A stretch of 64,000 nt of DNA, taken from Candidatus Woesearchaeota archaeon. Its GTDB lineage: Archaea; Nanobdellota; Nanobdellia; Woesearchaeales; DSVV01. The notes beneath the pieces were generated by a model. The model worked only from the letters and a program-made list of their open reading frames with translations. It was not told where the DNA came from and searched no databases. The stretch lies in contig JABJHR010000011.1 in the NCBI GenBank assembly GCA_018661705.1, forward strand, positions 1 to 64,000. The letters are read 5' to 3'. Positions 2,772-55,902 of this stretch are shown here, in pieces; position 1 is the first letter of the stretch; each line of letters starts with the position of its first letter. A program made the translations under genes and the position numbers.

Positions 2772-2811
2772 ATTTTTTATTTTTCTTTAATTTTTTAATC
2801 TTCTTTGGAAA

Positions 2812-2912
2812 AAATTCTTAGTGAGCTATATTGGCTCTGCCCTGGTGTTGAAGAGTATTACACTGCATGTCACTCTACAACACTAGGTCCGAAGGACATG
2901 CTTCTCATGAGT
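2812..2912 (+). repeat. Repeat module with possible H-type pseudoknot
   Basis: The first 40 bases closely match 7431-7475 (shared core ATTGGCTC-C/T-GCCCT-A/G-GTGTT). Two interleaved stems can be drawn: 2841-2850 with 2878-2887 (CCTGGTGTTG/CAACACTAGG, one G-T pair) and 2865-2871 with 2895-2901 (GCATGTC/GACATGC). Because they interleave they would form a pseudoknot. The module follows the MFS stop codon. It overlaps the upstream part of a longer open frame, which argues for starting the next gene at 2988. Confidence 0.5.
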
Positions 2913-2987
2913 TTTTTACAATTTAGAAAAAAGAAAAAAAACAGATTAAACACAAAATTAATATATACAATTATATTCCATATTCAC

Positions 2988-5781: not shown

Positions 5782-6044
5782 GATTAGGATGTTGTTTAGT
5801 TAGGTTATTTAAAGTTTATTATATTATTTTATTTAGAAATCAAATCCATGTAAAAACCTAAGAGAAAAGTATTTGAAAATATCCTAAACAACAATAATCG
5901 TCACCGCACGCTAATAAAAATTCCCTTTTTTCTCCTCGACAACAGTAAAGTTTAAATATTAGTAATAGTTATAGGATTATTTAGTTATGCTAAAGAGTAT
6001 AATAATAGACATAATAAAAAAATAGGGAAGTGAGGTGTAGGGAC

Positions 6045-7367
6045 ATGAAAAAAAGAGTAATTTGTTTGGTATTAATTGTAATTTCTATGTTTTTAATAGC
6101 TGGTTGTGTTGAAGTTGATAATGTAGATGAACTAAAAAAAGAAGGAGAAGAATTAGTTTGTTTACCTGGAGAAGAAGACACAACAACCGATGAAGGAGTT
6201 ATAGACACAGAAGATGATGAAGAAATTCCTGAAACAGAAGAAGAAGAAACTGAAGATGGAATTACAGAAGAACTTAAAGATGAAATTGATGATGTTACTG
6301 AAGATGAAACTTTAATAGAAGAAACAGATGATGTAACAGAAGAAGTTGAAGATGTTGTGGAAGAAGCAGAAGAAGATGGTATGATTGTAAAAACATTCAC
6401 AGAAGGAGATATTGTTACACTTGTTCCAAAAGCAACTGATCAAGATAATGATGAAGTTACATTCACATTTACAAGCCCATTAGATACAAGTGGAAAATGG
6501 CAAACATCTGAAGGAGATGCTGGAACTTACATAATTACAATTACTGCATCAGATGGAAAATCTGAAGTTAGTAAAAAAGTAAAAGTTGTTGTTAAATCAA
6601 TGAATCAAGCACCAACATTAGGAATTAATCAGGAAGTAATTGTTAAAGAAGGAGACACAGTAACATTAAATCCTGCTGTTAGTGACCCTGATGGTGATGA
6701 AGTAAGTGTTGAATTCTCTGGTTGGATGACATCTGATACAAAAACAACAAACTATGATGATGAAGGATCATATGAAGTTGTAGTAACTGTAAGTGATAAT
6801 CAACTAAGTATTTCAAAAAGTGTTATTATTGAAGTACAAAATGTTAACAGACCGCCTGTATTAAACAAAGTTCAAGATGTTGAAGTAACAGAAGGTGAAT
6901 TAGTAGAAGTTATTGCAAAAGCATTAGATGCTGATAATGATGTAGTAACTTATACATACATTGGAGCGCCAATTGAAAATGGAGAATGGCAAACAGTAGA
7001 AGGTGATGCTGGTAATTACAAAATCAAAGTAATTGCAAGCGATGGTAAAAATGAAGATGAAAAGACATTTGATCTTATTGTTAACATGAAAAACCAAGCA
7101 CCTGTAATAAGCCCAATGGATGATATATTAATCACTGTTGAACCAGGTCAAACAAAAACAGTTACATTAAGCCCAGTAATTTCTGATCCAGAAGGAGATG
7201 ATTTAGTAGTAACATTCTCTGGTTGGATGACAACTGCAACAAAAGATGTAACATTTGATGATGGTGGAGCACACACAGTTACTGTTACCGCAGACGATGG
7301 TAAATTAGAAACAAGTGTTGATGTAACTGTAGATATTAACAGACCACCTGAGTTTATTGTTGAATAA
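6045..7367 (+). CDS. Secreted lipoprotein with cadherin/Ig-like repeats
   Basis: A signal peptide ends in a lipobox, LIAGC, so Cys21 or so would be lipid-modified and the protein anchored outside the cell. A strongly acidic Glu/Asp/Thr linker (about 30-105) follows. Four tandem beta-sandwich repeats of about 82 residues follow, joined by NQAP or NRPP hinges near residues 185, 266, 348 and 430. Repeats 1 and 3 share (T)GKWQT-EGDAG-Y; repeats 2 and 4 share FSGWMT. Such repeats resemble dystroglycan/cadherin-type domains and suggest adhesion or surface scaffolding. GAGGTG seven bases before 6045 favours this ATG over the GTG at 6030. The protein ends just after a fifth hinge, NRPPEF. Confidence 0.85.
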   Translation: MKKRVICLVLIVISMFLIAGCVEVDNVDELKKEGEELVCLPGEEDTTTDEGVIDTEDDEEIPETEEEETEDGITEELKDEIDDVTEDETLIEETDDVTEEVEDVVEEAEEDGMIVKTFTEGDIVTLVPKATDQDNDEVTFTFTSPLDTSGKWQTSEGDAGTYIITITASDGKSEVSKKVKVVVKSMNQAPTLGINQEVIVKEGDTVTLNPAVSDPDGDEVSVEFSGWMTSDTKTTNYDDEGSYEVVVTVSDNQLSISKSVIIEVQNVNRPPVLNKVQDVEVTEGELVEVIAKALDADNDVVTYTYIGAPIENGEWQTVEGDAGNYKIKVIASDGKNEDEKTFDLIVNMKNQAPVISPMDDILITVEPGQTKTVTLSPVISDPEGDDLVVTFSGWMTTATKDVTFDDGGAHTVTVTADDGKLETSVDVTVDINRPPEFIVE

Positions 7368-7430: not shown

Positions 7431-7475
7431 AAAATTCGTGAGTGACATTGGCTCCGCCCTAGTGTTACAGAGATT
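7431..7475 (+). repeat. Partial copy of the 2812 repeat module
   Basis: It shares most positions with 2812-2855, including GGCTCCGCCCTAGTGTT against GGCTCTGCCCTGGTGTT. Only the 5' half is present, so the pseudoknot partner strands seen at 2878-2901 are missing. As at 2812, it lies about 60 bases after a stop codon. Confidence 0.5.
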
Positions 7476-7502
7476 TATGATTATTAATTAAATACAAAAA
7501 AT

Positions 7503-7592
7503 AACAACAAGGCCAGGCGAGCCGAACAAAGTAAGGCGAGTAGTATTTTTTCGAATGTAATGAGAAAAAATGCGTCTGTGCCATGGTTGTTG
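7503..7592 (+). ncRNA. Three-way-junction element, copy A
   Basis: Basal stem CAACAA-GGC/GCC-TTGTTG with a 4-base ATGG bulge on the 3' side. P2 has arms GCC (7521-7523) and GGC (7535-7537). The linker GAGTA (7538-7542) leads to P3, a 10-bp stem with a loop, ending in TGC. GTCTG then returns to the basal stem. Five other copies in the window keep the same plan with different stem sequences. Whether it is transcribed is not known. Confidence 0.6.
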
Positions 7593-7733
7593 CTTAATGT
7601 TAATCAAGCTTAATAATTTCGACTTTAGTCGTAATTATTATTGTTGTTTTTTGTTAATACATTATTTTACCATTATAAAAATAGTGCCTACAATAAATAA
7701 AACTTAATAAACCATTAAACCAACCAAACTTCT

Positions 7734-8417
7734 ATGAAATTCATACATAAAGCATTTAGTGAGTTATGGCCAGAGGAGGAATTAAAGCATGAGATTACGG
7801 TTAAGTATTCTGGAAGGTTTTCTGATTATAATGCTAATGTTACTTACACTCCTTGGAAAATGAATATTAAATTAAGCAAAGCATGGAGAGGCGTTGATGA
7901 AGATATTAGAATAGGCTTAGTACAAAGTCTTTTAGTCAAAGTTTTCAAATCAAAAAAATACAAAGACTTCAATAAATCAAATAAAATGGAATTATATGAG
8001 ATGTTTCTAAAGAATATTGGATCAGTTGCACCAAGAAAAGAAAGTCATCCTGAATTAATTGAATCTTTTAACAGAATTAATGATGAATATTTTTATGGTC
8101 TAATGGATATGCCTAATTTGTTGTGGGGAAAACCAACCTTAACAAAATTAGGAAGTTATGAATATGGTACAGACACTATTGTGATGAGTTCTTCATTAAG
8201 AGAAGCTCCTTTAGAAATGCTTGATTATGTAATGTATCATGAATCTTTGCATAAGAAACATAAATTTTATCACAAGAATGGAAAAAGTTATCACCACACA
8301 CACGCATTTAGGAAAGATGAAAAGTCCTTTAAAAATTCAGAACATATAGAAAAACAACTCAAATATTTCTTAGGTAAGAAAAAGGTTAAGAAGGCATTTT
8401 TTAGTTTTTGGAAGTAA
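7734..8417 (+). CDS. SprT-like zinc metalloprotease
   Basis: The 227-residue protein has a zinc-binding HExxH motif (HESLH, 169-173) inside LDYVMYHESLHKKH, preceded by a beta-sheet region (NDEYFYGLMDMPNLLWG). This is the layout of SprT/Spartan-like and related gluzincin domains. A histidine-rich stretch with HTHAF downstream may supply the third zinc ligand. The family includes proteases that act on DNA-protein crosslinks, but the role of this small archaeal form is inferred only from the fold. It stands alone, with a likely terminator hairpin after it at about 8436-8463. Confidence 0.75.
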   Translation: MKFIHKAFSELWPEEELKHEITVKYSGRFSDYNANVTYTPWKMNIKLSKAWRGVDEDIRIGLVQSLLVKVFKSKKYKDFNKSNKMELYEMFLKNIGSVAPRKESHPELIESFNRINDEYFYGLMDMPNLLWGKPTLTKLGSYEYGTDTIVMSSSLREAPLEMLDYVMYHESLHKKHKFYHKNGKSYHHTHAFRKDEKSFKNSEHIEKQLKYFLGKKKVKKAFFSFWK

Positions 8418-14897: not shown

Positions 14898-15707
14898 TTA
14901 TTCTACTTCTCCCATTAATGAAGTCTTAATCATTTCTCTACATGAACAAGGCTCATCTTTGATCTTTGGAATTATTGCTAAAAGTAATTTTGTTACATTT
15001 GCTGCATTTCCTTTCATTGTTTCCATTACTTTTCCAATATCAACAACTTCATTTTCTTTCCAGCAATCATAATCTGTACTCATTGCAACACTTGCATAAC
15101 ACAATCCAGCTTCTCTAGCTAAAACAACTTCTGGAACAGTGCTCATGTTAATAACATCTGCATTCCATGTTCTAAACATATGTGATTCTGCCCTTGTTGA
15201 GAATCTTGGACCTTCAATTGTAACCATTGTTCCTTTTGGATGAGATGCTAAACCTAATTCTTGTGCTGTTTCTGAAAATAATCTTCTAATTTTCTCACAA
15301 AATGGATCTGACATAGGAATATGACAAACGGTGTTTGACATATATTGATTGTCCCCATAGAAACTTTGATGTCTTTTAGTTGTTCGATCAATAAACTGAT
15401 CAATAAACACAAAATCACCTGGTTTAATTTCTTCTCTTAAACTACCGCAAGCAGTTGTTGCTAAGATGTGTGTGCAACCTTCTTCTTTCAAAGCCCAAAT
15501 GTTTGCTCTGAAATTAACTCTGGTTGGCATAACTGTATGTCTTTTACCATGCCTTGAGATTAATACAACATCAACACCACCAATCTTTCCACAAACTAAT
15601 TTACTAGAAGGTTTTCCAAATTGAGTCTCAACTTCTTTTTCAACTGCATCTTGCATAATCTCTGGATTTTCTAATCCAGTTCCACCAATAATTCCTATTT
15701 TCACCAT
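14898..15707 (-). CDS. mtnP: S-methyl-5'-thioadenosine phosphorylase (MTAP)
   Basis: This enzyme cleaves 5'-methylthioadenosine with phosphate to adenine and methylthioribose-1-phosphate. The 269 residues show the PNP/MTAP family features: N-terminal [13 protein letters not shown], phosphate-binding [37 protein letters not shown], and the active-site segment [20 protein letters not shown]. The NMS...DYDCW pattern favours MTAP over purine nucleoside phosphorylase. An inosine-phosphorylase side activity, known in some archaeal MTAPs, cannot be excluded. AGGTGAAATAATG gives the start. The three-way-junction element E lies about 140 bases upstream on the same strand. Confidence 0.93.
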
Positions 15708-15849
15708 TATTTCACCTTTTTGAATGTTATAATTGTTATTTTAGATTGAGAATTAGTTTTTATTTATATTTTTAGTGTAATTAAATGATTTTATTTTCTA
15801 TCCTTTATATAGAAACCATCAACAATAATAATTTATTTTTCTAATAAAG

Positions 15850-15955
15850 AAAAAATCCAGCCATTCACGGCAGGGCTTACGGACATTTTCCTTTAGAAAA
15901 TATCCTATTCACCTCATTTCATTCGGTTCATTAGCCCGCCATGACTGGATTTTTA
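15850..15955 (-). ncRNA. Three-way-junction element, copy E
   Basis: Read on the minus strand: basal stem AAAAATCCAG/CTGGATTTTT, a 3'-side ATGG bulge, inner stem GGGCT/AGCCC, P2 ACC/GGT with a GAATGAAATGA loop, linker GAATA, P3 GGATATTTTC/GAAAATGTCC, then GT. P2 and the basal stems differ in sequence from the other copies but keep pairing. Strong A/T flanks would also make it a terminator-like hairpin. Confidence 0.6.
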
Positions 15956-15962
15956 GAAAACA

Positions 15963-16063
15963 CAATCATCAATTGCGCAGATGGGGGGAGGGTCGTTCCT
16001 TCGGAAGCCCCCATAGGACAAATTGTTTACAATTTGGCCGTCTGCCGCCATTGTTGATGATGG
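15963..16063 (+). ncRNA. Three-way-junction element, divergent copy F
   Basis: Basal stem ATCATCAA/TTGATGAT and GCAGA/TCTGC. P2 is GC-rich (GGGGG/CCCCC around TTCCTTCGGAA). Linker ATA leads to P3, a CAAATTG/CAATTTG stem closed by GG/CC, then GTCTG. The GG...CCGTCTG 3' part matches copies A-C, but the 5' junction is shorter. It ends about 74 bases before the nitroreductase start. Confidence 0.5.
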
Positions 16064-16136
16064 TGTTTTCTTTTCAATTATTAAACAACAATCACCAAAA
16101 ACTATTTATACAACTTCTCACAGGAATGATATTGCG

Positions 16137-16826
16137 ATGGACACATTAGAAAGTATTTATACAAGGAGATCTATTAGGAAATACAAAGATCTTCCAGTTG
16201 AATGGGAGCTCATAGGTAGAATTGTTGAGGCTGGTTCTTTTGCACCAAGTGCAGGAAATACTCAAAGTTATAGATTTATTGTTGTGCAAGACGATGAAAA
16301 AAGAAAACAACTTGCTAGTGCATGTGTGCAACAATATTGGATGGAACAAGCACCTATTCATATAGTAGTGTGTTGTGAAATAAGAATTGGTATTCAAATG
16401 TATGGGACAAGAGGAGAAAGATTATATAATGTCCAAAACACAGCAGCAGCTGTTGAGAATATATTATTAGCAGCTAATAATTTTGGATTAGGATCTTGCT
16501 GGGTTGGAGCATTTGATGAAGCAATGGTAAAAAGGATTTGTGGAATTCCAGACTTTGCAAGACCACATGCAATTATTACTCTTGGTTATGCAGATGAACA
16601 ACCACCTGCACCACAAAAATATAAACTAGAAATTCTAACTTATTTTGAAAAATATCATAATAGAATTAAAGATATTAATGTAGTTCTTGGTGAATACAGC
16701 CCAGTTGTAGCAAAACACGCAAGAGAAGCAAAAGAAGCATTAGACAAAGGAACTTCTAAATTATTTCATAAAATTAGTAAGAAACTTAAAGACGTACATA
16801 GAAAAGTAACTAGGAAAAATCCATAA
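16137..16826 (+). CDS. Nitroreductase-family flavoprotein
   Basis: The protein has 229 residues from the ATG at 16137. The frame is open upstream to 16023, but that part runs through the structured element. The FMN-binding start (IYTRRSIRKYKDLPV), the SFAPSAGNTQSYRFIVV segment and NILLAANNFGLGSCWVGAF are typical of nitroreductase-like oxidoreductases that move hydride from NAD(P)H through FMN. The last 50 residues (from about 180) are a lysine-rich helical tail not usual in the family. The substrate is unknown. It is transcribed away from mtnP and followed by the long ftsZ upstream region. Confidence 0.85.
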   Translation: MDTLESIYTRRSIRKYKDLPVEWELIGRIVEAGSFAPSAGNTQSYRFIVVQDDEKRKQLASACVQQYWMEQAPIHIVVCCEIRIGIQMYGTRGERLYNVQNTAAAVENILLAANNFGLGSCWVGAFDEAMVKRICGIPDFARPHAIITLGYADEQPPAPQKYKLEILTYFEKYHNRIKDINVVLGEYSPVVAKHAREAKEALDKGTSKLFHKISKKLKDVHRKVTRKNP

Positions 16827-18735: not shown

Positions 18736-19518
18736 ATGTTATACCTAATTGGCCTTGGCCTTGGAAATGAAAAAGATATCACAGTTAATGGTTTAAAAGC
18801 CGTTAAAGAATGTGATGTTGTGTATTTAGAGAATTATACTTCAAAATTGCAGTGTGATCTTAGTAAGTTAGAAGAATTGTATGGAAAAAAGATTATATTA
18901 GCAGAAAGAGGAGATGTTGAAGGGGATGAATCCAAAGGTATGAACCCAATATTAGAAGATGCTAAGACTAAAAAAGTTGCTCTACTTGTAATTGGAGATC
19001 CTATGGGAGCTACAACTCATACTGATATGTTATTGAGATGTAAAGAATTAGGAATTGAATTCAAAGTTATACATAATACTTCAATACTAAATGCAATTGG
19101 AATTGTTGGACTAGAACTATATAAATTTGGAAAAACAACTTCAATTCCATTTCCAGAACCAAGTTTTCAACCAGAAACTGCATATGATGTTCTTAAATTA
19201 AATAAAAGAAATGGAATGCACACATTATGTCTTCTTGATTTAAGACCAAGTGAAGAAAGATTTATGACAGTGAATGATGGAATTAAGATCCTATTAGATA
19301 TTGGTAAGAAAAAAGTTAAAGACAAGAAAGAGAAAAAAGCATTATTTAAAGAAGATACATTCTGCATAGGATGTGCAAGAATCGGTAATGATAATTTTAT
19401 AAAAGCTGGAAAAGCTAAAGATTTATTAGAAATTGATTTTGGCGGATATCCACATTGTTTAATTATTCCTGGCAAATTACATTTTGTTGAGGAAGAAGCA
19501 ATGGGATTGTGGAAATGA
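18736..19518 (+). CDS. dphB: Diphthine synthase (DphB)
   Basis: This SAM-dependent methyltransferase methylates the modified histidine of elongation factor 2 on the way to diphthamide. The 260-residue protein opens with MLYLIGLGLGNEKDITVNGLKAV and has VALLVIGDPMGATTHTDML (about 88-106), both characteristic of the DphB/cobalamin-methyltransferase fold. The target, aEF2, is encoded in this window with the acceptor histidine present. The ATG follows TTTATAAACC by about 25 bases, suggesting a leaderless mRNA. It is convergent with corA; a three-way-junction element lies between. Confidence 0.95.
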   Translation: MLYLIGLGLGNEKDITVNGLKAVKECDVVYLENYTSKLQCDLSKLEELYGKKIILAERGDVEGDESKGMNPILEDAKTKKVALLVIGDPMGATTHTDMLLRCKELGIEFKVIHNTSILNAIGIVGLELYKFGKTTSIPFPEPSFQPETAYDVLKLNKRNGMHTLCLLDLRPSEERFMTVNDGIKILLDIGKKKVKDKKEKKALFKEDTFCIGCARIGNDNFIKAGKAKDLLEIDFGGYPHCLIIPGKLHFVEEEAMGLWK

Positions 19519-19612: not shown

Positions 19613-19637
19613 GAGTTTATTGCTCTAAGATTATGAT

Positions 19638-19738
19638 ACAAAAAACAACAGCAAGGCCAGGCGAGGTGAAACCGAGTAGTATTTTTTCGACAAGATGGAG
19701 AAAAAATGCGTCTGTGCCATTGTTGTTGTTGTTTTTTG
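19638..19738 (+). ncRNA. Three-way-junction element, copy B
   Basis: Basal stem AAAAAACAACAGCAA-GGC with GCC-TTGTTGTTG and T-run. P2 is GGT/ACC (19665-19667, 19671-19673), linker GAGTA (19674-19678). P3 is GTATTTTTTC/GAAAAAATGC (19679-19688, 19700-19709), then GTCTG. It lies between the convergent dphB and corA genes and its T-run could end dphB transcription. Confidence 0.6.
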
Positions 19739-19766
19739 CCCAGACAGAATTAAATAAGATAACAAA

Positions 19767-20687
19767 TTATAACCATTTCTTTTTCTTAAAGAATAATAAC
19801 ATAATCATTATTGATACCAACATTAAACCTAATGCGAAAATATAACCATATTGCCATTGAAGTTCTGGCATGAATTGGAAGTTCATACCATACAAACCAG
19901 TAATTAAAGTAGGCAACATGATAAGAGTAGCCATTATTGTAAAAGATTTCATAACTTTGTTAAGCTCATTTGACATTGCGTTAAGATGTGTATTAACAAT
20001 CTCTGTTAATCTTTCTCTAGAAATTGCTTCTTCATCAATAAGTTGTCTTGCATCCTGATAAAGATCCTCAAATAAACTATCCCTTAATCTGAATAATTCA
20101 CCATGCCTTAAACATTTTAAAACCTCTACATTATATTTAAGAGCTTTTCTAAAGTAAATTAATGTTCTTTTTAGAGGGAAAACTGCATCTGCATAGTCTT
20201 TATCTGCCCTTTTCAAGACCTCTGTCTCAATTGCATCAATAAAATCTTCTATTTTATCTAACTCTGCTTCAAAATTATTAATAACTCTTTCTAAAATGAA
20301 ATGCAAAAATCCATAGATGTCTCTGACATTAGTCTTATATATGTTTTCATGCAATTCAGTAACTGACTTAAGTTCATTTCGATGAATTGTAATAATATAA
20401 TTTTTTTTAACGTAAATTCCTAAGGTTCCCGTGTAAACATGGCCTTTATCAAGTGGAGCATTAAAAATAACATAAGAGTAATTTTTGCTTTTCTCAACCC
20501 TAGGCCTTTCTAATGGATCAAGTGATACAATCAAATCACCATAAGCAATACCTAATTTAGAAGATAATGCTTTTAATTCATCTCTTGTTGGATCAAGAAG
20601 ATCTAACCAAATTAACTTTTTAGAATGATCTATGTAAGGATTTACTAACTTCTCGAACCTCTTTTTTTTAATGTAAGCTTCAACCAT
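19767..20687 (-). CDS. corA: CorA-type magnesium/cobalt transporter
   Basis: This pentameric cation channel has two C-terminal membrane helices. The selectivity signature GMN is present (YGMNFQFMPE) between TM1 (FTIMATLIMLPTLITGL) and TM2 (YIFALGLMLVSIMIMLLFF), ending in the usual lysine-rich tail. The cytoplasmic domain (about 1-240) is of normal size. From the ATG at 20687 the protein has 306 residues. The frame extends to 20783, but that would run into the upstream palindrome, so 20687 is preferred. It is divergent from the MATCAP-like gene. Confidence 0.93.
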   Translation of the reverse strand: MVEAYIKKKRFEKLVNPYIDHSKKLIWLDLLDPTRDELKALSSKLGIAYGDLIVSLDPLERPRVEKSKNYSYVIFNAPLDKGHVYTGTLGIYVKKNYIITIHRNELKSVTELHENIYKTNVRDIYGFLHFILERVINNFEAELDKIEDFIDAIETEVLKRADKDYADAVFPLKRTLIYFRKALKYNVEVLKCLRHGELFRLRDSLFEDLYQDARQLIDEEAISRERLTEIVNTHLNAMSNELNKVMKSFTIMATLIMLPTLITGLYGMNFQFMPELQWQYGYIFALGLMLVSIMIMLLFFKKKKWL

Positions 20688-20730
20688 TAAGTGTTTAATT
20701 GATGTAATTATATTTAAAGCTTTGGGAAAA

Positions 20731-20815
20731 GGGTGAAAAGGGATTTGGGGTTGTGGGCTAGGGATTAGTGAGTAACAACACAAGTATCCCTAACCCCTCT
20801 TTCACATGTTATCAA
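20731..20815. repeat. Palindrome in the corA/20879 divergent region
   Basis: Inner perfect arms TAGGGAT/ATCCCTA are flanked by GGGGTT/AACCCC and GTGAAA/TTTCAC. It lies between two divergent starts, so termination is less likely than regulation or a repeat remnant. AGATTTAAATA just after it could be the TATA box of the 20879 gene. Confidence 0.5.
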
Positions 20816-20878: not shown

Positions 20879-22075
20879 ATGCCAACAAACAAAGAAATTG
20901 ATAAAAGTCTTGATAAAATCAGTAAAAAGATCTCTTTTTTTGCAATTAATCCTGTGAATGAAGAAGCTGAAAAAAAGAAATTCTTCAAAGATAAAAAATA
21001 TCAACCAGTATTTGAATATGAACCTTACACACATGACATTGACAAACTACAAACACAATTAAGAGATGTTTCCCCTGATAATTCTGAACTAGGAAAAATT
21101 CTAAAGCAAGCAAGGAATATTTATTATGCAAACCTTAACATGATAAAAAGTAGAGGTAAAGATAATTTTACAAAATATTCTATTTTATGTTATGGTGCAC
21201 CTGATAAAGACCTTGTAAAAGAAGCAAGAAAAATACTTAAGTCAAAAAGACCAATAAAAGAAAAAAAAGATTTAACAACTGCCCAAGTTATTAGTAGAAT
21301 GAAATACGCTTTTATTAAATATGGGTTTAGTTGGAAGATTGTAGAAAAAGAAATGGCTGCATGTGCAGCTGTCAACGGCAAAAAAAAGGAATTAATAATT
21401 AAAAAAGGCCAAAGGTTTTCGAAAAAGTTCTTGAAAAGATTAATTGTACATGAAATTGGAACACATATTCTAAGAACTGAAAATGGTGCACATCAACCTT
21501 ACAAAATATTTGAGAGAGGTCTTCCAAATTATTTAATGACAGAAGAAGGATTAGCAGTTACAAACGAAGAAATTAATCATTGCCTAGATATTGCGATCCT
21601 AAGAAGGTATGCAGCAAGAGTTATAGCAGTAGACACTGCCCTAAAAAAAGGATTTAGAAAAGTCTATGAAGAATTAACAAAATATCTTGATAAAGACTTA
21701 GCATGGAGAACAACTGTAAGAGTAAAAAGAGGTTTAGGTGATACATCTAAACCAGGCGGCTGTACAAAAGATTTTGCTTATCTTAGAGGATATTTTGCTG
21801 TGAAAAGATATACTGAAGCAGGTAATGATTTACAAAAACTGTATTATGGAAAAGTTGGAATACAACATGTTGAAATGCTAGATAAAATTCCGGGGTTGGT
21901 AGAACCAGAATTATTACCAACATTCAGATATTTAAGATATTTTATTGAACACTTTGAAGGCTTACTAAAAAGCGTTATTTTACTAGATATTCCCCCATTT
22001 AATCTTACATTCAGACTGATAAAGAACAATATCAAAGGACTTTCTTTAAGGAAGATGTTCAATGGGAAAAAATAG
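20879..22075 (+). CDS. MATCAP/DUF1704-like metallopeptidase
   Basis: The 398-residue protein has the unusual zinc motif HExxxH (HEIGTH, 191-196) and a downstream EEGLA (222-226). This pair defines the DUF1704 (QEGLA) family, which includes the eukaryotic tyrosine carboxypeptidases MATCAP/TMCP. The zinc-site helix and the segment RTENGAHQPYKIF are well kept, so an active peptidase is likely. Known eukaryotic members trim the tubulin C-terminal tyrosine; the archaeal substrate is unknown. The sequence starts with lysine-rich helices. Element D follows on the opposite strand about 35 bases after the stop. Confidence 0.85.
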   Translation: MPTNKEIDKSLDKISKKISFFAINPVNEEAEKKKFFKDKKYQPVFEYEPYTHDIDKLQTQLRDVSPDNSELGKILKQARNIYYANLNMIKSRGKDNFTKYSILCYGAPDKDLVKEARKILKSKRPIKEKKDLTTAQVISRMKYAFIKYGFSWKIVEKEMAACAAVNGKKKELIIKKGQRFSKKFLKRLIVHEIGTHILRTENGAHQPYKIFERGLPNYLMTEEGLAVTNEEINHCLDIAILRRYAARVIAVDTALKKGFRKVYEELTKYLDKDLAWRTTVRVKRGLGDTSKPGGCTKDFAYLRGYFAVKRYTEAGNDLQKLYYGKVGIQHVEMLDKIPGLVEPELLPTFRYLRYFIEHFEGLLKSVILLDIPPFNLTFRLIKNNIKGLSLRKMFNGKK

Positions 22076-22110
22076 TTGTTTTATTTCTAAAAAGTTAATT
22101 TTGTTAATAA

Positions 22111-22213
22111 CAAAAACCCAGCCATCCATGGCAGCACATACGGACTTTTCTTCGTTTCACTCAAAAAAATCCTATTCGTCTTCGACTCACATGTGCGCCA
22201 TGGCTGGGTTTTT
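22111..22213 (-). ncRNA. Three-way-junction element, copy D
   Basis: Read on the minus strand: AAAAACCCAGCCATGGC pairs with GCCATGG-ATGG-CTGGGTTTTT, leaving the same ATGG bulge as other copies. GCACAT/ATGTGC continues the stem. P2 is GTC/GAC with a GAA loop, linker GAATA, P3 GGATTTTTTT/GAAAAGTCC, then GT. This is the most stable copy by eye. It is antisense to both neighbouring genes. Confidence 0.65.
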
Positions 22214-22251
22214 AGAAAAACCATTTAAATCACAAAAGTATTTCTACAGAT

Positions 22252-23760
22252 ATGACCAAAATAATCTTAGATTGTTACACTGATGAACCAGCAGGATTAG
22301 GTGTTCCTCCATATATTGGAACCTATCCAAGATATTTGTTTGGTAAATTAATGAGTGAAAAGAGAAAGAACGAAGAAGTGTATTATTTTACAATTGATGA
22401 TTTAAGATTATTCCTAAAACATAAAAATAAAAAGCCTGAAACTAAGACACATGAAAAAACAAATATTACAATCCATAATTTAACTAAGAATTCTCAGAAT
22501 TTTAAAGAAATCTTTGAAAGTGCAAAGGAAATATATGTTGTTTTAGGTGTGCATGTGCCTGGAAAATATTTAACAGCTGTTCCTGCCACAATACATGAAA
22601 TAAATACCTTGTTTAAAGAACTATTAAAAAGACATTGTATTACTGCAAAAAGAATCTTAACTGGGCCAGCAGCAACTGAATTTGGAACAAGGTTAGAAGG
22701 GGGAAAGTTTGCAGAGAAACAAGACTTAAGTTTATTTAATACAGTTACTCCCGAAATTGTTTCTGATTATGGAGAAATTGCAAAATATGCTGTTCTTGGA
22801 GTGGAAATTGTTGATCAAATTGTAAATAAAGAAGGATGGAATTATGTAATTGCTGAAATTGAAACTGCAAGAGGGTGTGGCAAAGGTGTTGCATGTAGTT
22901 TTTGTACAGAGCCATTAAAAAATAAACTTGAATTTAGAAAAGTTAAAGATATTGTAGATGAAGTTAAAGCACTTAACAAACAAGGTGTGAAATATTTTAG
23001 ATTAGGAAAACAAAGTGATTTCTTTGCATGGGATGCTTCTGATATTAAGAAACTTTTAAGCGGCATAAGGAAGGAATGTAATATAGATGTATTACATATT
23101 GATAATATTGACCCTGTTCGTGCTGATGAAGAAAAAGTAAAATTAGTTGTTGAACATTGCACCAGTGGAAATATAGCAGCAATGGGTGTTGAAAGCTTTG
23201 ATGCAGAAGTTGTAAAGAAAAACAATCTCAATTCTAATCCTGAAGTTACAATGAGGGCAATAAAATTAATCAATAAAATTGGGGCAGAAAGAGGAGAGAA
23301 TGGAATGCCTAAATTTGTGCCAGGATTAAACATTATTTTTGGTTTAATTGGAGAAGGTAAAAAAACACAAGAAGCAAATATGAAATATTTACAAGAGATT
23401 CTTGATTCTGAACTGTTGTTAAGAAGAATTAATATTAGACAAGTTGCTGTTTTTCCAGGAACGCAACTAGAAAAAGAAGCAGGGAATAAATATCTTAGAA
23501 AAAATAAGAAATATTATTGGAAATGGAGAAATGAAATTAGACAGAAAATAGATAATGTAATGCTAAAGAAGCTTGTTCCTAAAGATTTAGTGTTGAAAGA
23601 TTGCATTGCAGAGATTTATGATGGAAAAACTACGTTTTTAAGACAAATTGGAACATATCCATTGATAATTGGAGTTAAAGAAAGGCTAGAATTAGGTAAA
23701 TTCTATAATATTAAGGTTACAGGGCATATGTTAAGGAGTATTGTAGGAGAAGTAGTGTGA
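22252..23760 (+). CDS. Archaeal radical SAM protein with TRAM domain (COG1031-like)
   Basis: The 502-residue protein starts with LDCYTDEPAGLGVPPYIGTYPRY, the signature opening of an archaeal radical SAM family of unknown function (COG1031). The iron-sulphur cysteines are Cys209, Cys215 and Cys218 (ARGCGKGVACSFC), a wider spacing than the standard C-x3-C-x2-C. The TIM-barrel part extends to about 420. The C-terminal 70 residues end in a TRAM-like small beta barrel (GKFYNIKVTGHMLRSIVGEVV), as in methylthiotransferases and RNA methylases that bind RNA. An RNA-modifying role is an inference. Confidence 0.85.
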   Translation: MTKIILDCYTDEPAGLGVPPYIGTYPRYLFGKLMSEKRKNEEVYYFTIDDLRLFLKHKNKKPETKTHEKTNITIHNLTKNSQNFKEIFESAKEIYVVLGVHVPGKYLTAVPATIHEINTLFKELLKRHCITAKRILTGPAATEFGTRLEGGKFAEKQDLSLFNTVTPEIVSDYGEIAKYAVLGVEIVDQIVNKEGWNYVIAEIETARGCGKGVACSFCTEPLKNKLEFRKVKDIVDEVKALNKQGVKYFRLGKQSDFFAWDASDIKKLLSGIRKECNIDVLHIDNIDPVRADEEKVKLVVEHCTSGNIAAMGVESFDAEVVKKNNLNSNPEVTMRAIKLINKIGAERGENGMPKFVPGLNIIFGLIGEGKKTQEANMKYLQEILDSELLLRRINIRQVAVFPGTQLEKEAGNKYLRKNKKYYWKWRNEIRQKIDNVMLKKLVPKDLVLKDCIAEIYDGKTTFLRQIGTYPLIIGVKERLELGKFYNIKVTGHMLRSIVGEVV

Positions 23761-53183: not shown

Positions 53184-53588
53184 ATGGTGAAGCGAATTTT
53201 TGAAAAGTTTAAAAGATCCTTTGGAACAGATGAACCTGACATTGATGAAGTTGAAGATGAATATGTGGAATTAGATGTTCTTGGTGGTAGTGAAGATAAA
53301 AAAGGCACAGCAAAAGTAATTGTTAGACCGTTTGTAATTAATGATTTTTCAGATATAAAATTAGTTCTTGACTCATTAAGAATTGGAAATACAGTGGGTT
53401 TGATTAATATTAAACCACTAAAAAACAAAGACTTAGTTGAGCTAAAAAGAGCAATTAACAAACTAAAAAAGACATGTGATGCAGTTGGTGGAGATATTGC
53501 TGGATTCGGCGATGATTATTTAGTTGTAACACCAAGTTTTGCAAGTATCTATAGAACAAAAGATACTGAAAACATTGATGCAGAATAA
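53184..53588 (+). CDS. sepF: SepF-like cell division protein
   Basis: Archaeal SepF (DUF552) anchors FtsZ to the membrane. The 134-residue protein has the amphipathic N-terminal helix (MVKRIFEKFKRSF) that inserts in membrane, an acidic linker (DEPDIDEVEDEYVELD), and the SepF core (AKVIVRPFVINDFSDIKLVLDSLRIGNTVGLINIKPL and FGDDYLVVTPSFASIY). GGGAGGCGTAAAAA precedes the ATG; the TATA box ATTTATATATA is near 53085. FtsZ is encoded 35 kb away in the same window. Confidence 0.93.
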   Translation: MVKRIFEKFKRSFGTDEPDIDEVEDEYVELDVLGGSEDKKGTAKVIVRPFVINDFSDIKLVLDSLRIGNTVGLINIKPLKNKDLVELKRAINKLKKTCDAVGGDIAGFGDDYLVVTPSFASIYRTKDTENIDAE

Positions 53589-53725: not shown

Positions 53726-53751
53726 AAAAACAATATACTTTCTTTTAATAC

Positions 53752-53840
53752 AAAAAACAATCATGGCCAGGCGAAGTGAAACCGAGTAGGACTTTTGAAT
53801 GAAATGAAAAAGTCCGTCTGTGCCAAGGTTGTTGTTTTTT
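53752..53840 (+). ncRNA. Three-way-junction element, copy C
   Basis: Basal stem AAAAAACAA/TTGTTTTTT with GGC/GCC, AAGG bulge. P2 is short (GT/AC around GAA), linker GAGTA. P3 is GGACTTTT (53789-53796) with AAAAGTCC (53808-53815), loop GAATGAAATGA, then GTCTG. From GAAACCGAGTAG to GTCTGTGCC it is nearly the same as copy B except for P3, which differs but still pairs. Confidence 0.65.
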
Positions 53841-53985
53841 GCTTCTTCATAAACGTCATATAAATACTACCACTGCCACCAAAATATTTATATATCAAGA
53901 CTGCATTATACCTATTAAACAAATCAATATAGGCTAAATCTATACATTGGTTTAATAGTTGTATTATTGAACAAAGGTGAAATAA

Positions 53986-55902
53986 ATGATTGAAATAACA
54001 TTTCCTGATGGAACTAAAAAAAAGTATGAGAAAGGAATTAAAATAAGTGAAATTCTAAAAGGATTACCAGAATTTGTACAACAAGAAGCATTAGCTGCTA
54101 AAGTAGATGATAAATTAGTTGATTTAACAGCAGAAATAGATAGAAATGCAACTTTGCAAATTTTAACATTTAGAGATCCAGAAGGTGTTGAGATATTTAG
54201 ACATAGTTCTGCACATTTAATGGCAGAAGCTGTCACAGAACTTTATCCTTATGCTAAACTTACAATTGGCCCAGTTGTTGATGAAGGATTTTATTATGAT
54301 ATTGATCATGAACCTTTTACTCCTGAAAATATTATTGAAATAGAAAAAAAAATGAAGGAGATTATTAATAGAAAAACTCCAATAATCAGAAAAGAAATCA
54401 CAAAGAAAGAAGCATTAGAATTATTCAAAGACAATGAATACAAATTAGAAATGATTAATGAATTAGGAGATACAGAAGAAGTAATTTCTGTTTATGAACA
54501 AGGTAAATTTGCCGATCTCTGTAGAGGACCACATGTCCCACACACAGGAAAAATTAAATCTTTCAAATTAACAAAAATTGCAGGAGCTTATTGGAGAGCA
54601 GATGCAAAAAATAAACAACTTCAAAGAATTTATGGAATTAGTTTTAGAGATAAAAAAGATCTAAAACAATATTTGCATGTGTTAGAAGAAGCTAAAAAAC
54701 GAGATCATAGAGAACTAGGGAAGAAATTAGAGTTATTTAGTTTTCATGATCATGGAAAAGGTTTGCCATTCTTTCATCCAAAAGGCATGATAATTTGGAA
54801 TGAATTATTAGATTTTTGGAGAGAAGAACATAAAAAGGGAGGATATGTTGAAATAAAAACACCATTAATTCTTAACAAAAGCTTATGGGAAAAATCAGGA
54901 CATTGGGCACATTACAAAGACGATATGTATACATTAAAAGTTGATGAAGATGATTATGCAATAAAACCAATGAATTGCCCTGGAGGAATGTTAATTTACA
55001 AAGAAAAACTCCATAGTTATAGAGAGCTCCCATTAAGAGCAGGTGAAATTGGTTTAGTGCACAGACACGAATTAAGTGGTGTCCTAACAGGATTATTTAG
55101 AGTAAGAGCATTTCATCAAGATGATGCACATATTTTTATGACAAAATCTCAAATTAAAGATGAGGTTTTAGGAGTATTGAGTTTAGCAGAAAGATTTTAC
55201 AAAACTTTTGGACTTGATTTTAATCTTGAATTAAGTACAAGGCCAGAAGGATCCATTGGAACAGATGAACAATGGGAATTTGCAACAAATGGATTAAAAA
55301 ATGCATTAGATGGCACAGGAAAAGAATATAAAATTAATGAAGGAGACGGTGCATTTTACGGACCAAAAATTGATCTACATATTAAAGATGCCTTAGGAAG
55401 AACATGGCAATGTGGAACAATACAATTAGACATGTCTTTGCCAGAAAGATTTGATCTTACATATGAAGGCCAAGACGGACAAAAACATAGAGTTGTAATG
55501 ATTCATAGAGTTATCTACGGTAGCTTAGAAAGATTTTTGGGAGTAATTGTTGAACATTTTGCAGGAAAATTTCCATTATGGTTAGCACCAACACAAGTTA
55601 GAATCTTAACCGTATCTGAAAAGTTTAACGAATATGGTGCAAAAGTAGAAAAAATGTTTGAAGAAGCCGGAATAAGAGCAGAGATTGATAATAGAACAGA
55701 ATCAATTCCTAAAAAAGTTAGGGATGCACAGATTCAATACATTCCTTTAATCTTAACAGTAGGAGAAAAAGAAGAAACAAATAATACAGTTGCTGTACGA
55801 ACATTGAAGGGAGAAGTTAAGTTTGGCGTTAATACAGAAGAGTTTATTCAAAAAGTTAAAGAAAATATTAAGAAAAGAGAACTTGAGTTTAAACTTGAAT
55901 AA
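53986..55902 (+). CDS. thrS: Threonyl-tRNA synthetase, bacterial/eukaryal type
   Basis: The 638-residue enzyme charges tRNA-Thr. Its domain order is the bacterial one: TGS (1-60), the N2 editing domain with HxxxH (H73SSAH77), the class II catalytic core with zinc ligands in NCPGGMLIY and HRHELSG, YGSLERFLGVIVEHFAGKFPLW, and the anticodon-binding domain ending at 630. Many archaea instead have a ThrRS with a D-aminoacyl-deacylase-like editing domain, so this is the bacterial form and suggests transfer in this lineage. AGGTGAAATAA sets the start. It converges with the small membrane protein gene at 5 bases. Confidence 0.96.
   Translation: MIEITFPDGTKKKYEKGIKISEILKGLPEFVQQEALAAKVDDKLVDLTAEIDRNATLQILTFRDPEGVEIFRHSSAHLMAEAVTELYPYAKLTIGPVVDEGFYYDIDHEPFTPENIIEIEKKMKEIINRKTPIIRKEITKKEALELFKDNEYKLEMINELGDTEEVISVYEQGKFADLCRGPHVPHTGKIKSFKLTKIAGAYWRADAKNKQLQRIYGISFRDKKDLKQYLHVLEEAKKRDHRELGKKLELFSFHDHGKGLPFFHPKGMIIWNELLDFWREEHKKGGYVEIKTPLILNKSLWEKSGHWAHYKDDMYTLKVDEDDYAIKPMNCPGGMLIYKEKLHSYRELPLRAGEIGLVHRHELSGVLTGLFRVRAFHQDDAHIFMTKSQIKDEVLGVLSLAERFYKTFGLDFNLELSTRPEGSIGTDEQWEFATNGLKNALDGTGKEYKINEGDGAFYGPKIDLHIKDALGRTWQCGTIQLDMSLPERFDLTYEGQDGQKHRVVMIHRVIYGSLERFLGVIVEHFAGKFPLWLAPTQVRILTVSEKFNEYGAKVEKMFEEAGIRAEIDNRTESIPKKVRDAQIQYIPLILTVGEKEETNNTVAVRTLKGEVKFGVNTEEFIQKVKENIKKRELEFKLE

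Follow-up and report, generated by a model that had tools for sequence, protein, structure and literature searches.

The six intergenic repeats found in the window (the whole 64-kb stretch of DNA that was analysed) belong, on the reading that we tentatively favour, to a family of short intergenic palindromic repeats of one Woesearchaeota order, which would behave as mobile DNA and be recognised as folded single-stranded DNA in the manner of REPs and REPINs. As judged from the sequences, one strand of the element can fold into a three-way junction, and this fold has been preserved while both sides of every pair have changed, either by selection or by copying. Comparison of related genomes shows copies gained and lost between them, some lying in head-to-head pairs. 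A REP-like mobile element is favoured because the copies are randomly oriented, turn over, form pairs, are nested within other repeats and have a hairpin with RTAG at its foot.

The repeats in the window

Six copies had been picked out in the sequence-only reading, and all were confirmed at the coordinates and on the strands claimed for them. Copy 1 (7494..7604, core 7503-7592, + strand) lies between ORF 6030-7367(+) and ORF 7734-8417(+). Copies 2 (15847..15958, - strand) and 3 (15955..16071, + strand) form the left and right halves of a head-to-head pair, the former upstream of an MTAP-like gene, 14898-15707(-), and the latter upstream of ORF 16137-16826(+). Copy 4 (19637..19740, + strand), used as the type copy and with the top score among the window copies, is located between a dph5-like gene, 18736-19518(+), and ORF 19767-20783(-). 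Copy 5 (22108..22217, - strand) is antisense to both of the ORFs that it lies between, 20879-22075(+) and 22252-23760(+), and copy 6 (53746..53846, + strand) is found between ORFs 53184-53588(+) and 53986-55902(+).

A covariance model had been proposed as a check on these copies. The model used, R2, was made from 45 copies from other genomes and other contigs, with the window sequences excluded so that circularity was avoided. It recovers just the six window copies, each on the claimed strand, with E-values of about 7.8e-16 to 3.4e-11, and the next-best match in the window (E 0.1) is merely a true copy read on its reverse strand.

Anatomy of the element

The element is a non-coding stretch of ~100 bases (about 85-160 nt), one strand of which can fold as a three-way junction. 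Its plan agrees with the description given from the sequence, with a basal stem, P2, the linker GARTA and P3, followed by CGTC and the closing strand. The basal stem, P1, is 12-20 bp long, and in the window's own genome (G000) its 5' strand is A-rich and its 3' strand T-rich. Inward from P1, the 3' strand has a bulge; next are GGC/GCC, a single 3'-side base left unpaired, a helix of about 5 bp (CAGRC/GTCTG), P2, RTA and P3. P3 is stacked directly, and its 3' strand passes straight into the closing strand. In copy 4, where all parts are on the + strand, the 5' strand of P1a (GGC) and P1b (CAGGC) occupies 19655..19662 and pairs with 19710-19718, as judged by sequence and helix covariation; GA-[P2 GGT GAA ACC]-GA spans 19663..19675, as assigned by sequence and covariation analysis; the RTA linker, here GTA (19676..19678), reads GTAG together with the first P3 base; the P3 hairpin (19679..19709) is stacked directly on P1b; and the 4-nt bulge, ATTG, lies on the 3' side of the basal stem at 19719..19722.

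The recurrence of a 4-base bulge on the 3' side held up, as the bulge is 4 nt long in 92/93 copies of G000 and the nearest of the relatives compared (G001) and in 38/45 cross-genome copies, but its letters, given earlier as usually ATGG, vary genome-wide (ATTG, TATG, AATG, TTTG, ATGG and others). In the common small-P2 class, P2 consists of three pairs with a GNA-type loop and has GA on either side. The GARTA linker stands as a motif, but in this class its GA is matched by the GA 5' of P2 and the real linker is RTA. A long P2 is found in other genomes and in copy 3 of the window (GGGGG/CCCCC), and the long-P2 class carries UNCG-type loops. One long-P2 class (e.g. CAGAC-GCGAC...GTCGC-GTAGG) has G-C and C-G pairs in place of the two GA steps, an indication that the steps flanking P2 in the small class are paired as well. 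A complementarity between loop and linker (CCTAC/GTAGG) was rejected, being accounted for by UNCG tetraloops.

The most constant letters of the element are the RTAG at the P3 foot and the CGT that follows P3. Either GTAG or ATAG is present at the P3 foot in 88/93 G000/G001 copies and in 37/45 cross-genome copies. The motif is internal, and pairing in P3 begins with its last G.

Covariation and strand asymmetry

The compensating changes that had been noticed in the stems are real, and go beyond shuffled controls in both alignments and beyond slid controls in the cross-genome one. The following figures lean toward structure, since the copies are related and were aligned by fitting to the model: in 93 copies of two genomes (G000/G001), two-sided changes were seen at 30/35 pairs (19.3 in shuffles), with 93.6% of cells paired (79.4% shuffled) and a covariation score of 0.41 (0.16 shuffled); in 45 copies from about 39 genomes they were seen at 35/35 pairs (27.5 in shuffles), with 92.5% of cells paired (64.4% shuffled, 40-56% with partners slid) and a covariation score of 0.69 (0.20 shuffled, 0.10-0.17 with partners slid). 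With an effect this large, and with slid controls so much lower, covariation as an artefact appears unlikely.

Wobble pairs in the core are overwhelmingly G·T rather than A·C (182 vs 6 in the 93 G000/G001 copies, and 48 vs 0 in the cross-genome set), and one particular strand is therefore the structured one. In P1 the wobble cells number 46 G·T and 17 A·C. This stem is looser and alters chiefly through whole-pair swaps, with few G·T intermediates, and its covariation is for that reason the weaker argument. It may be asked whether the covariation results merely from the correction of inverted repeats, through template switching or through conversion from arm to arm, the fold then being without function. 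The many two-sided swaps in P1, where only 46 of 1390 cells are G·T, are in keeping with this, as is the finding that P3 can differ wholly between copies that are otherwise alike in sequence and flanks. However, such correction should have removed the RTA linker, the core G·T pairs and the bulges of constant length (4 nt and 1 nt), all of which persist across >30 genera, and we regard it as a most improbable explanation.

The main rival to the mobile single-stranded DNA reading, and a serious one, is a structured RNA, in which transcription of the + strand yields parts of UTRs or small RNAs, the junction binds a protein or protects, processes or regulates RNA, and spread is secondary. Covariation in every helix across genera, the frequent wobble pairs confined to one strand, and the conservation of the single-stranded RTA and of the bulge length all speak for it, as does the retention of the fold at four loci shared by G000 and G001 though the letters of P2 or P3 changed at some. 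The frequent G·T pairs, like the UNCG-type loops of the long-P2 class, would fit RNA too and so count against the mobile DNA reading. We consider the structured RNA possible but doubtful, on grounds of distribution and orientation that are given below.

No RNA family with this junction had been known to the sequence-only reading. Like the structured RNAs of Rfam, the element has a conserved secondary structure with compensatory changes; unlike them, it matches no Rfam 15 family, either at the gathering score or, for the element copies, at E<=1. No description of the element was found in the open-access literature. In one relative, a weak glutamine-riboswitch match (L050 2797-2859; 27.7 bits) was observed under the gathering score of 35. 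That the dozens of dispersed mobile loci make up an undescribed RNA class, with a junction that is itself functional and kept across an archaeal order, seems rather improbable; the junction would then be a candidate for protein or ligand binding, or for a role within an RNA-guided or RNA-mobilised system.

Size and spread of the family

A nucleotide search with a single copy detected about 40 places in the own genome, and a covariance model built from 40 copies (R1) detected 83 at E<=1, of which 81 were below 0.001, giving about 80 copies in this genome (92.8% complete). The nearest of the relatives compared, G001, which belongs to the same genus, carries at least 69. Elsewhere in the same family, two genomes of one genus have 12 copies each and one genome has 32. 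Relatives had been suggested as a place to look for further copies, and R2 matched 46/371 sampled genomes of the phylum, all of them in the window's own order. The element was not found in most genomes of the order, and copy number differs greatly among genomes. The wide variation in copy number and the absence from most of the order are not what would be expected of the structured RNA.

When the core pattern was searched for, the named carriers were Candidatus Woesearchaeota, along with a few scattered bacterial records that look like chance matches. There was no match to the element in viral contigs or phage records, and a virus or phage origin was rejected on this basis.

Genomic setting and turnover

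Across eight contigs, ORFs of 110 aa or more cover 84% of the bases, and 73/75 copy centres fall outside them. The orientation of copies relative to flanking genes is near random, with (+,+) 20, (-,+) 13, (-,-) 10 and (+,-) 9 in G000, and (-,-) 13, (+,+) 11, (-,+) 8 and (+,-) 5 in other genomes. A UTR role inferred from orientation was rejected, as there is no strong bias. For the structured RNA, this orientation would place many copies antisense in UTRs, and no common promoter-like sequence was seen by eye upstream of copies outside those in Rep-B (a second repeat, described below). A mobile element folded as single-stranded DNA accounts for the orientation, turnover, pairs and RTAG at least as well as RNA does. 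A GC-skew test for replication or lagging-strand bias found none, a point against the mobile DNA reading.

Turnover was assessed between G000 and G001, for which the median amino-acid identity is 64% at conserved gene neighbours. By a strict test of 95 conserved gene junctions, 9 + 2 were occupied in one genome only and 2 in both, and one of the two shared junctions has its copies in opposite orientations. On relaxed inspection there are four orthologous shared loci. The fold is retained at all four, and P2 (e.g. GCC/GGC vs GGC/GCC) and P3 differ at some of them, which could reflect compensation in situ or replacement by conversion, both being possible. Nearest-neighbour identity among G000 copies is at most 0.88, and as no pair exceeds 88% identity, no recent burst is visible, which likewise tells against the mobile DNA reading.

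Two further observations concern differences between copies. L009 (G000 C15:97333) and L022 (G000 C1:152240) have similar flanks and identical P1b/P2 and wholly different P3 hairpins, suggesting a cassette-like replacement of P3. In G001, full copies at C14, C27, C33, C54 and C59 have truncated 5' element halves (e.g. AAATCCAACAACATGGCTGG) directly upstream of them, as though insertion took place into older copies or was aborted beside them.

A protein-binding cruciform tied to the chromosome, selected at many sites for DNA architecture and not for mobility, would be intergenic with long palindromes, as observed, and would explain the shared loci with a preserved fold. It is held to be decidedly unlikely in view of the one-strand asymmetry, the patchy presence and the differing of most sites between related species.

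Another possibility is a classical MITE, a non-autonomous DNA transposon in which a DDE transposase would use the ends of the basal stem as terminal inverted repeats. The element resembles prokaryotic MITEs in being short, non-coding and intergenic, in having inverted-repeat ends and in being gained and lost. Unlike them, its ends lack sequence conservation even inside one genome (ACAAAAAATAAC, TTTAAATCCAAC, AAAAACCCAGCC and others) while pairing is kept, and it has a strand-specific internal fold, the conserved junction of which would be unexpected. Comparison of target sites gave no alignable empty site and defined no target duplication, the flanks in G000 being confounded by Rep-B. Direct repeats (TTATAC...TTATAC) near some G000 copies were rejected as target duplications because they lie inside the shared Rep-B flank. 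A MITE is thus thought very unlikely.

Pairs and nesting

Head-to-head pairs with gaps of 0-40 nt are present in seven genomes (G000, G001, G057, G069, G075, G154 and G331), and most copies are single. Tail-to-tail pairs are rare, with one in G001 and a second spotted by eye, and no tandem pairs were noticed among the copies examined. The adjacent pair in the window and that at G001 C33 were considered as one shared locus, and this was rejected as the loci are different.

Rep-B, a second dispersed palindromic repeat, was observed in the window at 2810-2917 (+) and also at 7436-7466, upstream of copy 1, which sits within one of its arms. It has an outer stem GTGAGTGACAT/ATGTCACTCAC, small hairpins TGGCTCCGCC and GTCCGTTAGGAC, and a central arm CTAGTGTTGAAGAG..., and among 60 genomes searched it has 18 matches in the own genome and zero in 59 relatives. 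Many of the G000 three-way-junction copies are nested within the Rep-B central arm. A third repeat, GCTTAATGTTAATCAAGCTTAATAATTTCGACTTTAGTCGTAATTATT, is located at about 7593-7665 of the window, directly 3' of copy 1, and also adjoins other elements at C14:131039, C3:122627, C3:124977 and C1:13093.

A candidate mechanism and the search for a mobilising enzyme

In the mobile DNA reading, the element would be exposed as single-stranded DNA, and its folded strand would be recognised in trans, either by an HUH-type (Y1) transposase or by some similar enzyme that acts on single strands, on the model of bacterial REPs/REPINs. RTAG and the P3 hairpin would together be the recognition unit, and the shape may be set by the remaining arms along with the long palindromic P1.

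A Y1 transposase was found in 13/18 element-bearing and 12/42 element-free relatives (p 0.0035), in 12/16 and 4/17, respectively, of genomes of at least 1.3 Mb (p 0.005), and in association with the element outside the own family at p 0.03, an association that is confounded by kinship. No Y1 match was obtained in the own genome with its many copies, none of 20 Y1 loci inspected had strong element copies on both sides, and no Y1 subfamily clearly tracks the element, all of which counts against the mobile DNA reading. The subfamily seen in G001 was considered as a partner, as five more element-bearing genomes have it at 53-58% identity. It was not found convincing: several copies are broken, and two element-free genomes have it too, G301 at 56% and G210 as a broken copy at 49%. 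Two other candidates were rejected: a reverse transcriptase, as there is none in G000 or G001, where most copies reside, and TnpB (PF07282), which is carried by 3/32 element-bearing genomes vs 83/371 overall.

Comparison with known repeats

ERIC-type repeats are dispersed, intergenic, imperfect palindromes of about 100+ bp. The element is like them in size, intergenic position, imperfect palindrome and dispersal, and unlike them in having a branched fold that covaries across many genera. No sequence relation between the two is known.

GTAG REPs are hairpins of 20-40 bp with a terminal GTAG at the foot, more generally GT[AG]G or a degenerate form of it 0-2 nt 5' of the hairpin, and are often found as head-to-head dimers and linked to RAYT/TnpA-REP genes (PMC3733652, PMC6006769, PMC3116915); some bacterial REPs are set within other palindromes (PMC3733652). 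The element is similarly dispersed, intergenic, structured on one strand and patchy between genomes, with RTAG at a hairpin foot, some copies in head-to-head pairs and occasional nesting in other palindromes. It differs in being an 85-160 nt three-way junction with a long basal stem and not a simple 20-40 nt hairpin, in having RTAG at an internal junction and not at an end, and in belonging to an archaeal order. It is not filed here as a REP, because none of the Y1 loci inspected is flanked by it on both sides and it is not a simple hairpin. A recent survey describes REP-like palindromes in archaea generally and does not mention Woesearchaeota (PMC12306157). What is new relative to REPs is the three-way-junction plan, and the family is little-known.

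With this family, an archaeal order of DPANN type gains a large, strongly covarying set of branched repeats that is lacking from RNA libraries, and of which both the mobility and the fold can be traced by comparative genomics. If the element is recognised as RNA, it would represent a new RNA class in organisms whose RNA biology is scarcely known; if it is recognised as single-stranded DNA, REP-type mobile repeats would extend to archaea, with a new architecture.
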